A DNA stretch of 37,129 nucleotides from a virus: IMG/VR virus record IMGVR_UViG_3300046683_000569, positions 1 to 37,129 of that record. One strand, 5' to 3'. Below are positions 9,548 through 19,884 of the stretch, in pieces. Position 1 is the stretch's first letter; each line of letters opens with the position of its first letter. A program made the translations under genes and the position numbers. A model generated the notes under the pieces. It was not told the DNA's origin and searched no databases. It saw only the letters and a list, made by a program, of their open reading frames with translations.

Positions 9548-9922
9548 GTGACCACCTTCCCCACCCCCGCCACGCAGGCCGACGTCCTCGACAAGGCCGC
9601 CGACCGTCTCGCTGAACTCGGTTGGATCCAGGGCTCCATGTACGACTCCAAGCAGCACCACGTGGAGAAGGTGCCGCTGGCCGAGTGCCGGACCGACATC
9701 TACGGCGCGCTCAAGGCGGTCGTGCTGGGTGAGCCGCGCTTCGGCGGGGACGCCGACGATCTCGCCGTCGTCGACTTCGCGCTGGTGGCCCTCCACGAGC
9801 ACCTCGGGTGGAACGCCTTTGCCTTCAATGACGCCGACGGACGCACGGTCGAGGAGGTCATCGCGGCGATGCGGGAGACCGCCGCGAGCCTCCGCCCGGT
9901 CGGCGAGCAGGAGGCGGCATGA
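9548..9922 (+). CDS. DUF6197-like small protein
   Basis: The product is 124 aa and starts at GTG one base after the previous stop. The order of features resembles the DUF6197 family common in actinophages and Streptomyces: an N-terminal helix DVLDKAADRLAELGWIQG, a segment with a Cys before an alpha helix (AECRTDIYGALKAVV), and a C-terminal VEEVIAAMRETAASL. The comparison was made by eye. The family function is unknown. Confidence 0.6.
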   Translation: MTTFPTPATQADVLDKAADRLAELGWIQGSMYDSKQHHVEKVPLAECRTDIYGALKAVVLGEPRFGGDADDLAVVDFALVALHEHLGWNAFAFNDADGRTVEEVIAAMRETAASLRPVGEQEAA

Positions 9923-10455
9923 AGCTCTTCGGCGGGGCGGGCCTACACCGCTACACCAAGCGCCACCTCCGCGCCGACCGGGATGCGACCCGCGAGCAGT
10001 GCGGATACGTCGGGGAATGCCTCCGGCACACCGCGAGCGAACTCGGGACCTCGGTCGTCGAAGCCATCGAGCTTCGCGAGCAACTCGCACGGGCCCTCGA
10101 AGCCGTCGAGCGGTACGCAACCGCCGTGTCCACAGGGACCGGCGTCCGCGACACCAGCCGTATCGAGGACCAGGCGACCGTCCCGGTCGACGTGCGTGCC
10201 TGGCGCGCCGCGCATGCCGGGGACTACCTCGACGCCACCCGACAGGCGTGGCAGCCCGTACCGCTGGCCGACTCGCCGCTCGCGAAGGCACCCGTCGGGC
10301 CGGCGCTCCTCGAAGTCCGCCTCGACGAGCCGACCGCCGAGAACCGTTTCCCCGCCACCGCCCGCATCGCCGACCCCGACCGAGTCCTGTCGCGACTGCT
10401 CGACGGCGCCAGCAAGGTCACCGTCTCCGGCGGGCCACGACCCGCCACCGCCTGA
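9919..10455 (+). CDS. Phage protein with long helix, unknown function
   Basis: The product is 178 aa and overlaps the previous gene by four bases. A basic N-terminus (LHRYTKRHLRADRDATREQC) is followed by a long helix (ASELGTSVVEAIELREQLAR) and a Pro/Asp-rich C-terminal half with no visible motif. It ends this overlapping gene run; a hairpin follows at 10473-10497. Confidence 0.55.
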   Translation: MKLFGGAGLHRYTKRHLRADRDATREQCGYVGECLRHTASELGTSVVEAIELREQLARALEAVERYATAVSTGTGVRDTSRIEDQATVPVDVRAWRAAHAGDYLDATRQAWQPVPLADSPLAKAPVGPALLEVRLDEPTAENRFPATARIADPDRVLSRLLDGASKVTVSGGPRPATA

Positions 10456-10472
10456 ACCACCACCCGAAGCGC

Positions 10473-10497
10473 CGCGCCCGGATTCCGCCCGGGCGCG
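10473..10497 (+). terminator. GC-rich hairpin, possible terminator or attenuator
   Basis: CGCGCCCGG (10473-10481) pairs perfectly with CCGGGCGCG (10489-10497) around a 7-base loop. It lies in the 72-base gap after a long overlapping gene run and 30 bases before the next start. There is no T tract, so termination efficiency is uncertain. Confidence 0.55.
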
Positions 10498-10527
10498 ACA
10501 CCCAGACAGCATCCCAGGAGAACCGCC

Positions 10528-10821
10528 GTGTCCGACATCAACATCGCTGGCCTCGACAAGGCCCGCATCATCGCCGCCCTGTACAACGCTTCCTTCCCCC
10601 TCGGTCTCGGCCTCCTGCAGCCCGGCTGCGGCCAGTCCATGACCGTCGAGCAGGCCGAGCAGCACGCCGCCCGAGGACTGAACTTCGACTACCTGCAGGG
10701 CCGCGTCATGAAGGTCAACCTGTCCGGCGACGACTTCGACCCGGGCCTGTACGACCGCGACAACGGTCAGGGTGCCGCCGCCCGCGTCATCGAGAGCCTG
10801 CGCACCAAGGCCAGCCACTAG
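10528..10821 (+). CDS. Conserved small phage protein, unknown function
   Basis: The product is 97 aa from GTG 10528 with AGGAGA upstream. The sequence runs INIAGLDKARIIAALYNASF, then MTVEQAEQHA, then YLQGRVMKVNLSGDDFDPGL and ends with YDRDNGQGAAARVI. I know similar small proteins (LDKAxVLxALYNxS ... LxGRVMKVDLSGD ... YDRDNGxGxAxxxI) from diverse tailed phages, where the function is unknown. It is flanked by hairpins on both sides, so it may be a separately controlled, highly expressed unit. Confidence 0.7.
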   Translation: MSDINIAGLDKARIIAALYNASFPLGLGLLQPGCGQSMTVEQAEQHAARGLNFDYLQGRVMKVNLSGDDFDPGLYDRDNGQGAAARVIESLRTKASH

Positions 10822-10868
10822 CCACCCCGACCGGCGCCTCCTGGCCTGTCCGCCAGTAGACGGCGCCA

Positions 10869-10944
10869 GGCCCGGATCAATCCCCCCAGGTCCGGGCCCC
10901 AGAGGTCGCCCGCCTTCACCTCCCCCCAGAGGGCGGGCGACCTC
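10869..10944 (+). terminator. Two tandem hairpins, probable terminator/attenuator
   Basis: The first hairpin pairs GGCCCGGA (10869-10876) with TCCGGGCC (10891-10898). Three bases later GAGGTCGCCCGCC (10902-10914) pairs perfectly over 13 bases with GGCGGGCGACCTC (10932-10944). They fill the gap between the conserved small gene and the recombination operon. No U-rich tail is present. Confidence 0.65.
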
Positions 10945-10971
10945 CTCAACCGACGCCATTTGGAGCACCTC

Positions 10972-16625: not shown

Positions 16626-17108
16626 TCAGGCGTCGGGGGCTTCGGCCTTCTCGACCAGGACGCGCACCTCATCAAGGGCTGCGAGCGCGCGCTCGTAAAA
16701 GTCCATGGAGACGAGGACGGCGATGCGCTTCTGCTTCCGGGTTCCATCCACGATGACTGTGGCTTCGCCGCGCCATCGAGCCCGGCCGATGTACTCGGAG
16801 AGCTGCGACCGGAGCGCGGCATGGCCAGCCTCATTGGGGGCGAGTTCCCTGCGCTTATGGGCGGCCGGAGTACCGCTGACGTTGTGGACCGGGTGCTCGG
16901 TCTTGATCGCTCCCAGCTCGGCGGCACCGGCGGCCGGGCGGTTATCGAACCACTCCGCCGTCTTCTCGACGACCTGCGGCCACCAGGGCTTTTCGCGCTC
17001 ATGGTCGAGCCAACGGCTCTCGAGGTTCGCGGTGATGCCGACGTACAGCAAAGCACCGCCCTCGTCGTAGAAGCGGTAGAGGGCAGTGCGGTGGTCATCA
17101 AGCCACAT
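16626..17108 (-). CDS. GIY-YIG nuclease domain fused to an antitoxin-like domain
   Basis: The product is 160 aa, started at the ATG giving MWLDDHRTALYRF because GGAG lies about nine bases upstream. Residues 9-75 form a GIY-YIG endonuclease fold: ALYRFYD...LLYVGIT, R32 in SRWLDHE, and a Glu plus Asn near AELGAIKTEHPVHN. The C-terminal half (LRSQLSEYIGRARWRGEATV and then RIAVLVSMDFYERALAALDE) follows the pattern of Phd/YefM antitoxins. The protein therefore looks like a nuclease with a built-in dimerisation or DNA-binding control domain. It is on the strand opposite the surrounding operons and follows an HTH gene by 15 bases. Confidence 0.75.
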   Translation of the reverse strand: MWLDDHRTALYRFYDEGGALLYVGITANLESRWLDHEREKPWWPQVVEKTAEWFDNRPAAGAAELGAIKTEHPVHNVSGTPAAHKRRELAPNEAGHAALRSQLSEYIGRARWRGEATVIVDGTRKQKRIAVLVSMDFYERALAALDEVRVLVEKAEAPDA

Positions 17109-17123
17109 GAAGGGTCTCCTCAA

Positions 17124-17435
17124 TCAGGCCGAGGAGGCGCCCTCGGGCTTCGGTTTCCTGCTGGTGACGGTCGGCTCGCGCAGGGGTTCGATGTGGTTGG
17201 CGCGCGCGATACGACGGATCGTTTCGTAGCTGTAGTCGGTCGCTTTGGCGACCTCGGTCGGCTTCAGGCCGGCATTCAGCGCGGCAACAACGGCCTGGTC
17301 AAACGCCTCCGTGGCGTTCTTGACGAGGTCCTTGGCGCGCTTGTCGGCGCGCTGCTTGGCGCGGGCAGCCTGCTTCAGGCGGGTCACGACTTCCTCCTCT
17401 GGCATGGCCACATGTTCCCACACGGGCGAGGCCAC
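17124..17435 (-). CDS. Small HTH protein, probable regulator of the nuclease cassette
   Basis: The product is 103 aa from GTG 17435, supported by GAGGGA eight bases upstream; an internal ATG at 17405 lacks a good site. A long basic coiled helix (EVVTRLKQAARAKQRADKRA) is followed by an HTH (ALNAGLKPTEVAKATDYSYE, then TIRRIARANHIEP). It lies just upstream of the GIY-YIG gene and next to a 10-bp inverted repeat (17452-17489), the probable site it binds. The DNA-binding role is inferred from the HTH. Confidence 0.65.
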   Translation of the reverse strand: MASPVWEHVAMPEEEVVTRLKQAARAKQRADKRAKDLVKNATEAFDQAVVAALNAGLKPTEVAKATDYSYETIRRIARANHIEPLREPTVTSRKPKPEGASSA

Positions 17436-17451
17436 AACTGGTTTCCCTCAA

Positions 17452-17489
17452 ATAGCCAACAGGCACGAGTGCAAGTGTATGTTGGCTAT
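17452..17489. promoter_or_regulatory. Spaced 10-bp inverted repeat between divergent operons, candidate operator
   Basis: ATAGCCAACA (17452-17461) and TGTTGGCTAT (17480-17489) are perfect inverted copies separated by 18 bases. The region lies between the leftward HTH/nuclease pair (start 17435) and the rightward replication operon (start 17579). A protein dimer bound here could control both. Just downstream, TTCGCG (17495-17500) and CGCGAA (17506-17511) form a small hairpin in the likely leader of the replication transcript. Confidence 0.55.
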
Positions 17490-17578
17490 AGGGGTTCGCG
17501 CCAGTCGCGAATCGAGCCTCCCTGAGGCCCTGGTTCCGCATGCCCTGAACCCCTCGACCAACCCCGAGAGAAGAGCCA

Positions 17579-18499
17579 GTGAGCCAGAAAATCACCAAGC
17601 GGGTCTGGGACCACTCCAGCGCTCGCGGACCGGCACACCACGTGCTGCTCGCCATCGCCGACAGGGCTGATGACGAGGGCGTCGCGTGGCCGTCCATGGG
17701 TGACATTTCGCGCCGCTGCGGAGTCGGCGTTGCCACGGTCCAGCGGGCCGTCTCCAAGCTCATCGAGCTCAAGGAGATCGAGGTGTTCGAGGGCGGCGCC
17801 GGCAAGCGGTCGAACCGCTATGTGGTGCTCACCGGGCGAGACCAGGAGGCGCCCGTAGCGTTCCGGAGCGGAACACAAGACGACGCAGGCTCCGTTCCGG
17901 AGCGGAACAAGAGGATGTCTAGCGTTCCGGAGCGGAACACAAGGGGTTCGGCCTCTCACTCCGGAGCGGAACACCAAAGTTCCGGAGCGGAACAAGAGAG
18001 CAGTTCGTATTCCGCTCCGAGTAACGAACCTACGTATGTAGGTAGGCAGGCAAACCAACCCCACCGCCCTCCGGACAACCGCGGGCTTCGTGTACCTGGC
18101 TGGGCCCAAAGCATCATCAACGAGCTCGAGGCGAAGGGCATCGTCGTCAGCTGGAAGCACCGGATGAGCGATCTCCGGTGGGTGCAACTCCAGCAGCTAC
18201 TCGGGAGCCACGGCCAGCCCTACCTGGTCCACCTCGCCGGCCTCCGCTACGACCCGACCAACCCGATCAAGTTCGCGACGCTCCTGCTCGACATCTGGCA
18301 GGAGTACGGGGCGCCCAGACCCGGCACTGCATGGCATCCGGACACCGTCACCGCCCGCGATTCCCCCAAGCCTTCCGCCGCCCCGCTCCCCGAGTGGTGC
18401 GGCAAGTGCGACAGCCCCGATTACCGCTGGCTCGACAACGGCACCGGCTACGTCCGCTGCCGCAACTGCAACCCCGACGCCATGGGAGACACCCGATGA
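17579..18499 (+). CDS. Replication initiator (lambda O-like organisation)
   Basis: The product is 306 aa from GTG 17579. Residues 1-85 form a winged HTH (DRADDEGVAWPSMGDISRRC, VGVATVQRAVSKLIELKEIE), typical of phage replication proteins. Residues about 94-147 are low-complexity linker encoded by repeated DNA (the iteron array). Residues 165-260 form a helical domain that may contact the helicase, and a zinc ribbon (EWCGKCDS...CRNCNP) ends the protein. The next gene, DnaB, overlaps by four bases. An N-terminal DNA-binding domain, iterons inside the gene and an adjacent helicase mirror the lambda O-P design. The initiator role is inferred from this context, not from a close homologue. Confidence 0.75.
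   Translation: MSQKITKRVWDHSSARGPAHHVLLAIADRADDEGVAWPSMGDISRRCGVGVATVQRAVSKLIELKEIEVFEGGAGKRSNRYVVLTGRDQEAPVAFRSGTQDDAGSVPERNKRMSSVPERNTRGSASHSGAEHQSSGAEQESSSYSAPSNEPTYVGRQANQPHRPPDNRGLRVPGWAQSIINELEAKGIVVSWKHRMSDLRWVQLQQLLGSHGQPYLVHLAGLRYDPTNPIKFATLLLDIWQEYGAPRPGTAWHPDTVTARDSPKPSAAPLPEWCGKCDSPDYRWLDNGTGYVRCRNCNPDAMGDTR
17860..18019. repeat. Iteron array inside the initiator gene, candidate replication origin
   Basis: The 15-mer GTTCCGGAGCGGAAC, itself an inverted repeat (GTTCCG-GAG-CGGAAC), occurs exactly at 17860-17874, 17894-17908, 17924-17938 and 17979-17993. A two-mismatch copy (ACTCCGGAGCGGAAC) lies at 17958-17972 and an inverted partial copy (TTCCGCTCCG) at 18010-18019. Start spacing is 34, 30, 34 and 21 bases. 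Relative to the coding frame the copies fall in phases 2, 0, 0, 1 and 1, so they encode different peptides (FRSGT, VPERN, SGAE). The conservation is therefore at DNA level, as for initiator-binding iterons in the lambda O gene. Confidence 0.8.
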
Positions 18500-19884
18500 G
18501 CCACTTTGACGACGACCCGCTCGACGAGCAGCCCGGTCCGCCATCCGGCGAGGTCCCGAGCCGCGCCGTCCTCGACGCCGAAGACGCCGTAGTCGGCGCC
18601 GCACTCCACGGCCGCAACTACACCGAGACCGCGGCAGAAATCCTCACCCCCGAGCACTTCTACCAAGCGACGTGCTCGACCGCTTTCGCCGCGGCCCTCG
18701 AGCTCGCCGGCGGCAACCAGTGGATCGACGTCCGGTCCATCGTCCGCCAGGTCCAGAAGACCGACGGCATGCGGGTGTTCGGGAACAGCCCCGACCGCGT
18801 GTACGACCTCGCCAACCGGGCAGCCATCGGTCTCGAGGCCGTCCGCAATCACGCCCAGCTCGTTGTCGACGACTTCGCCCGCCGCGCCGTGTGGCGCGCC
18901 TGCATCCGTGGCGTGCAGCTCACCTCGAGCCCTGCCTTCGATGCGGCGACCGACACCGAGATCGTGCTCGCCGGGGTCCAGGCCGCGGCCGTCGGCCGAC
19001 CGGACAGCCAGCCCCTGTTGCTGGCTGATGACTTCGAGGACTACCTGGCGTCGCTGGAGAAGCCCGACCTGAACCCGGTGCTGCCGACGCCGTGGATGGA
19101 CGTGAACGAGCGGGTCCGCATTCGTGGCGGCCAGCTTGTGGTGATCGGGGCCCGACCGGGCGGCGGCAAGTCGCTCGCCGGGCTCGGCATCGCCGTGCAC
19201 ACGGCCGTCAAGCGCGGTCAGCCCGCGGTGCTGTTCAGCCTCGAGATGCCGCGCTTCCAGATCGACGACCGGATCCTCGCCTCGCAGGCCTCGGTGTCAC
19301 TGACCGCTTTCGAGGACCGCAACTTCACCGACCGAGACTTCATGCTCATCTCCGGCGTGTCGTCGAGCGTCCGGGACGCCCCGCTTGTCATCGACGACTC
19401 GACGTCCCTCACCGTCTCGCACGTCCGCACCCGGCTCCGCTGGATGCAGGGCCAGGGCATTCCGGCCGCGGTCGCCGTCATCGACTACATCCAGCAGATG
19501 AAGCCCACCGGCCGGCACGAGAACCGGGTCGCCGCAGTTGGTGAGCTCTCCCGTGAGCTGAAGAAGCTCGCCATGGAGTTCAACATCCCGGTCGTCGCGC
19601 TCACCCAGTTGAACCGGGCGTCGGAGGGACGCGCGGACAAGAAGCCCGCCATGTCCGACCTTCGCGAGTCGGGGTCGATCGAGAACGACGCGGACATCGT
19701 GCTGCTCCTCCACCGGCCCCCGCCGCTCACCGACGACGAGCGGGCCCGCGGCGACAGGGACCGCACCGACGAGGTCGATGTGCTCGTCGAGAAGCAGCGG
19801 CAAGGCAAAAACAAGATCGAAATCCCGCTCGTCTGGCAGGGCCACTACGCCCGCCTCAGCAACTTCGGAAGGGAATTCTCGTGA
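18496..19884 (+). CDS. dnaB: DnaB-type replicative helicase
   Basis: The product is 462 aa, close to the usual 450-480, and overlaps the initiator gene by four bases. The N-terminal domain (about 22-110, with DAEDAVVGAALHGRNYTETA) matches DnaB-N. The RecA-like domain has the Walker A motif GARPGGGKS (about 218-226), SLEMP, Walker B AVIDYIQQM, and ALTQLNRASE with DLRESGSIENDADIV near the C-terminus. It unwinds DNA 5' to 3' at the fork, loaded by the initiator next door. No separate loader (DnaC or lambda P type) is seen, so the initiator or the small downstream genes may load it. Confidence 0.95.
   Translation: MSHFDDDPLDEQPGPPSGEVPSRAVLDAEDAVVGAALHGRNYTETAAEILTPEHFYQATCSTAFAAALELAGGNQWIDVRSIVRQVQKTDGMRVFGNSPDRVYDLANRAAIGLEAVRNHAQLVVDDFARRAVWRACIRGVQLTSSPAFDAATDTEIVLAGVQAAAVGRPDSQPLLLADDFEDYLASLEKPDLNPVLPTPWMDVNERVRIRGGQLVVIGARPGGGKSLAGLGIAVHTAVKRGQPAVLFSLEMPRFQIDDRILASQASVSLTAFEDRNFTDRDFMLISGVSSSVRDAPLVIDDSTSLTVSHVRTRLRWMQGQGIPAAVAVIDYIQQMKPTGRHENRVAAVGELSRELKKLAMEFNIPVVALTQLNRASEGRADKKPAMSDLRESGSIENDADIVLLLHRPPPLTDDERARGDRDRTDEVDVLVEKQRQGKNKIEIPLVWQGHYARLSNFGREFS

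Follow-up and report, generated by a model that had tools for sequence, protein, structure and literature searches.

Why does a gene for a replication protein contain the same 15-bp palindrome in all three reading frames? This question is raised by a stretch of 37,129 bp (hereafter, the window), which is an entire IMG/VR virus record (IMGVR_UViG_3300046683_000569). The window is a prophage-like element, probably from a relative of Streptomyces. The palindromes lie at 17860-18019, inside the gene for a lambda-O-like replication initiator, and the array is accompanied by an AT-rich stretch at 18001-18040. From the sequence, we propose that the array and the AT-rich stretch form the replication origin of the element and that this origin, like that of phage lambda, lies within the initiator gene. 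We assign this reading a probability of about 0.85.

Palindromic array and AT-rich stretch

The palindrome GTTCCG-GAG-CGGAAC was found in four exact copies, one copy with two mismatches and one inverted partial copy. These are the counts and positions claimed in an initial annotation of this DNA. When up to three mismatches were allowed on both strands, 14 matches were obtained in the window, as compared with a mean of 2.5 and a maximum of 9 in 100 dinucleotide-preserving shuffles. Within the gene, a 14-mer occurs seven times (two mismatches, both strands), and at most three times in 30 synonymous-codon shuffles, in which the protein was fixed. Thus, the repeats exceed both kinds of shuffle. 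Relative to the start codon at 17579, we re-derived the codon phases 2, 0, 0, 1 and 1 and the peptides FRSGT, VPERN (twice) and SGAE (twice), as the initial annotation had given them. The Rfam search gave no match at the array. The array folds strongly as a single strand (z -4.1), which is a trivial consequence of the palindromic repeats. The spacings of 34, 30, 34 and 21 bp were also correct. However, the view that they represent whole helical turns holds only loosely (34 bp is approximately 3.2 turns), and this argument is weak for this array alone.

The spacers between the iterons are 19, 15, 19 and 6 bp long and, except for a block of 24 nt that is identical between copies 1 and 3, dissimilar. 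Because of this common block, part of the array may have arisen by duplication. The whole array could even have no role in replication and stem from a recent, neutral duplication or from insertion of a repeat element like the GTTCCGNNNCGGAAC arrays of Streptomyces; the occurrence of the same half-sites in those chromosomal arrays, in other contexts, fits such a source as well. However, the period of the chromosomal arrays is strictly 24 bp, in contrast to the unequal spacers of the window, and in relatives the corresponding place of this kind of gene is occupied by palindromes of unrelated sequence. We consider this explanation very unlikely.

Directly past the last exact iteron, positions 18001-18040 contain 52.5% AT, as compared with 34% for the whole gene. 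This is the most AT-rich 40-mer of the gene, and it ranks in the top 0.34% of all 40-mers in the window. In relatives of the gene (see below), the 60 nt beyond the last copy have an AT fraction of 0.42-0.50 against a gene average of 0.35 (72-74 genes), and the 50 nt beyond it have 0.47 against 0.39 in synonymous shuffles (p 9e-14). At third positions of these 50 nt, the AT fraction is 0.50 against 0.24.

Repeats and constraint in relatives of the initiator

The relatives came from IMG/VR, annotated phage and plasmid records, and genomes of Actinomycetes including Streptomyces; after reduction, 140 non-redundant genes remained, the window gene included. A gene passed the repeat test when at least four copies of a 14-mer lay inside 200 nt and none of 30 synonymous shuffles reached that count. 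As a control, 220 other genes from the same loci were used. The test was passed by 73 of the 140 relatives and by 5 of the 220 controls (Fisher p 1e-30). In 68 of the 73 passing genes, the copies lie in two or three frames, and in 36 they lie in all three. The copy spacings peak at 21-23 bp. Because the spacing modulo 3 is uniform across the relatives (98/98/95), the reading frame plays no part. The repeat consensus varies between clades and is palindromic in many, for example GGGTCGGAATCCGACCC, CCGGAAACCGG and GTTCCGTCACGGAAC. Judged from these patterns, many related actinobacterial elements appear likewise to keep their origin in the initiator gene. One relative (L134, initiator within 9797-10843) belongs to a MSSEAREWVWEHSSSRG initiator family with in-gene iterons and lies near WhiB, DUF2637, NikA-like and relaxase genes, a position that suggests integrative mobilizable elements that use such an in-gene origin.

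Constraint at the DNA level was measured in 22 orthologues from one Streptomyces clade as pairwise differences at four-fold sites. The differences were 5.7% in iteron codons, 46% in spacers (few codons, 362 comparisons), 18% in the region of the winged helix-turn-helix (wHTH) domain and 21% in the C-terminal part. Amino-acid divergence was equal in iterons and spacers (13%). An alignment of homologues had been proposed as a check in the initial annotation; in this clade, the synonymous sites inside the repeats are the conserved ones, and loss of the DNA repeats with retention of the linker residues was not seen. For the window, the "conserved" of the initial annotation means repeated within one gene; conservation between orthologues was seen in relatives only.

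These measurements bear on the idea that the repeats are a feature of the protein, with the linker peptide selected for itself. The equal amino-acid divergence, the strong constraint on iteron synonymous sites and the family-wide uniformity of the spacing modulo 3 contradict it for the relatives, although a single frame holds all copies in 5 of 75 relatives. In the window, two copies share one frame (VPERN), but the repeats as a whole encode three different peptides in a linker that is predicted to be disordered. We regard this explanation as extremely improbable.

Alternatively, the palindromes might serve the initiator as operators or as copy-control sites, for autoregulation or handcuffing, and the origin might be at another site, such as the divergent intergenic region 17436-17578. 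Palindromes for a winged-helix dimer are also typical of operators, and that region has an inverted repeat of its own (17452-17489). The array, however, lies deep within the gene, and its downstream AT-rich element is enriched at synonymous positions too in relatives. Moreover, an origin is favoured by the precedent of lambda (PMC5043065) and by the phasing of 21-23 bp among relatives; origin and control roles could coexist. Operators alone are thus an unlikely explanation.

Initiator protein, partner domains and neighbouring genes

The initiator has a PF13730 HTH_36 domain (Pfam, E 9.9e-12). The PHROG 391 profile (replication initiation O-like) matches residues 1-155 of 306 (E 9.5e-18), leaving the C-terminal half uncovered. 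In the AlphaFold2 model, the mean predicted local distance difference test (pLDDT) score is above 90 for residues 1-70 and approximately 77 for residues 71-90, a confident winged helix. The score is below 50 at residues 96-116, 118-146 and 153-167, and the repeat-encoded residues (94-138) fall in this predicted linker. The iterons may take any frame because the protein needs only a flexible linker there. In the C-terminal helical domain, the score averages about 71-90 per ten residues. A sequence search among solved structures gave no close relative, and a fold search of the PDB gave generic winged-helix matches only, none with E <=0.001. Among predicted viral structures, phage helix-turn-helix (HTH) proteins matched, including one putative replication protein O. 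The start of dnaB overlaps the initiator stop (ATGA). The PHROG match, the linker repeats, the relatives, the AT-rich neighbour and the synonymous constraint agree with the initial proposal of a lambda-O-like initiator with in-gene iterons beside dnaB. Coordinates are given in Table 1.

Table 1. Features in and around the initiator gene (positions in the window)
Feature	Position	Strand	Remarks
Divergent HTH gene upstream of initiator	17124-17435	-	
Initiator gene, lambda-O-like replication initiator	17579-18499	+	GTG start, 306 aa
wHTH domain, residues 3-90, presumed iteron-binding	17585-17848	+	AlphaFold2 pLDDT; Pfam HTH_36
Iteron 1, GTTCCGGAGCGGAAC	17860-17874	+	Exact; codon phase 2 (FRSGT)
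Predicted disordered linker, residues 96-167	17864-18079	+	AlphaFold2; coded by repeat array and AT-rich stretch
Iteron 2	17894-17908	+	Exact; codon phase 0 (VPERN)
Iteron 3	17924-17938	+	Exact; codon phase 0 (VPERN)
Iteron 4, ACTCCGGAGCGGAAC	17958-17972	+	Two left-arm mismatches; codon phase 1 (SGAE)
Iteron 5	17979-17993	+	Exact; codon phase 1 (SGAE)
AT-rich stretch, candidate DNA-unwinding element	18001-18040		52.5% AT
Inverted partial iteron	18004/5-18019	-	CGGAGCGGAA core
C-terminal helical domain, residues 172-245, presumed helicase/replisome contact	18092-18313	+	AlphaFold2; L046 similarity
CxxC...CxxC motif close to initiator C-terminus, possible zinc ribbon	18407-18469	+	Sequence reading
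dnaB-like replicative helicase	18496-19884	+	PF03796 DnaB_C E 1.5e-65; PHROG 19 E 4e-78

If the array is the origin, initiation could proceed as follows. The winged-helix N-terminal domain, probably as a dimer, would bind each 15-bp palindrome, and several initiator dimers would assemble a nucleoprotein complex. Negative supercoiling, perhaps with transcription through the gene, would then open the adjoining AT-rich stretch. The C-terminal part of the initiator would deliver the element's own DnaB, the product of the next gene.

The domains of the initiator seem to be combined differently in relatives. A protein encoded in a Streptomyces genome and in its IMG/VR record (L046/L139) has 41% identity to residues 87-303 of the window protein. 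A dnaB gene lies downstream as in the window, but the wHTH is another one, and so is the in-gene palindromic repeat (GGAAGCCCACTTCC). When viral contigs of IMG/VR were scanned for close GTTCCGNNNCGGAAC pairs, only two contigs were obtained, and both pairs sit in linkers of wHTH initiator-like genes. Across relatives, iteron similarity tracks wHTH similarity (Mantel test, 0 of 500). We propose, at even odds, that HTH_36 initiators of actinobacterial prophages and integrative mobilizable elements are a large, little-described class. In this class, the interdomain linker would contain the origin, made up of an unwinding element and an array of palindromic iterons specific to the clade, and wHTH and iterons would be swapped jointly, as a cassette for specificity attached to C-terminal domains that are conserved.

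What was computed here comprises the repeats, the DNA-level constraint in relatives, the AT-rich neighbour, and the identity and order of the genes. Several points weigh against the proposals above. About half of the relatives fail the repeat test. The known iterons of lambda O are not registered by it either, so the test has little power for iterons that have diverged. The window gene has no close DNA-level orthologue in the collections searched, and therefore the constraint was measured in the iterons of relatives and not in the window's own. The GC skew of the window has no turn at 18 kb and is uninformative. C-terminal similarity correlates with the iterons about equally to wHTH similarity (partial rho 0.26 and 0.25); the wHTH as iteron reader is therefore inferred, not proved. 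In another relative (L009), the half-site of the window is present despite a dissimilar wHTH. Finally, binding, dimerisation, opening, replication and helicase delivery are steps that we infer, dimer binding from the palindromy and the predicted wHTH.

Other searches were made with the palindrome and the protein. Pairs of CGGAGCGGAAC were found in seven viral contigs, two of which (L257 and L259, an identical stretch) overlap a wHTH gene; no orthologue of the window gene was present among the seven. Half-palindrome pairs in 393 Streptomyces genomes were apparently mostly coding-sequence noise. Two hits from a single-sequence protein scan of viral contigs (L006/L007) were dropped, since only a short PEWCGKCD motif is common, in an apparent methyltransferase-like gene. 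In Streptomyces chromosomes, the 15-bp palindrome GTTCCGNNNCGGAAC was observed in arrays with a period of exactly 24 bp, together with compensatory variants such as GTTCCCNNNGGGAAC (L011, L015-L017, L019, L021-L024, L026, L030, L032-L035). By translation, the array of L019 lies inside a ParB-like gene, and that of L035 lies either immediately upstream of a DUF3631-like helicase gene or within its N-terminal part.

As for the surroundings, profile searches identified genes for an integrase, an antirepressor-like protein, a C5-methylase and DnaB in the record, and the PHROG search identified a WhiB-like gene. The inverted repeat ATAGCCAACAGGCAC / GTGTATGTTGGCTAT at 17452-17489, between the divergent HTH gene and the initiator, is a likely operator. 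Beside the replication module, the gene at 16626-17123 (minus strand) has PHROG "endonuclease" matches and weakly matches a GIY-YIG nuclease. A 6C RNA lies at 10866-10948 (Rfam RF01066, 51.4 bits; gathering 47). Cysteines occur near the initiator C-terminus, in similar places to those in the window, in three otherwise different relatives (L046, L009 and L085).

Comparison with known systems

In-gene iterons in all three frames are already known from lambda gene O. In the open-access literature, we found this precedent and no report on the present initiator family in Streptomyces. The more interesting part is the broader pattern among prophages and mobilizable elements of actinobacteria. For the window, the analysis gives a base-exact candidate origin for an actinobacterial prophage-like element. 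Applied to prophages and mobile elements, the same recipe, namely initiator linker repeats above a synonymous null plus an AT-rich tail, yields candidate origins in dozens of them, and such origins are possible replicons for Streptomyces vectors. The locus is also a clear example of DNA and protein information that overlap: the sequence would be set by its function as DNA and tolerated by the protein in the form of a disordered linker.

The lambda iterons are inverted repeats; dimers of O bind them, and the neighbouring AT-rich region opens when O is bound and the DNA is supercoiled (PMC7466680, PMC5043065). By their annotated positions, the four lambda iterons occupy frames 0, 2, 2 and 1 of gene O. 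The anatomy of lambda O and ori-lambda recurs in the window: an N-terminal DNA-binding domain is followed by in-gene inverted-repeat iterons in several codon phases with an AT-rich neighbour. In contrast, the window iterons are 15 bp long and unevenly spaced, whereas those of lambda measure approximately 19 bp and are spaced by 20-24 bp. The window also has dnaB next door, and no lambda P-like loader was identified. The window protein was not matched by the lambda O family models PF04492 (Phage_rep_O) and TIGR01610, which lambda O matches. The comparison with lambda O drawn in the initial annotation thus holds for the in-gene iteron anatomy and not for family membership; by analogy, the window would work like lambda O and ori-lambda outside that sequence family.

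PHROG 391 itself is matched by the window protein via the wHTH and linker and by lambda O via the C-terminal part. The initiator of Vibrio phage K67, also in PHROG 391, has HTH_36 as in the window, and its gene contains three repeats, a number unequalled in 30 synonymous shuffles. Beyond the PHROG 391 match, the C-terminal part of the window protein is nearest to the Streptomyces prophage initiator described above (L046/L139). Like iteron plasmids of the P1, F and RK2 type, the window has an array of presumed initiator-binding repeats by an AT-rich region. Unlike in those plasmids, however, each directly repeated iteron of the window is itself a palindrome, and the array lies inside the gene.
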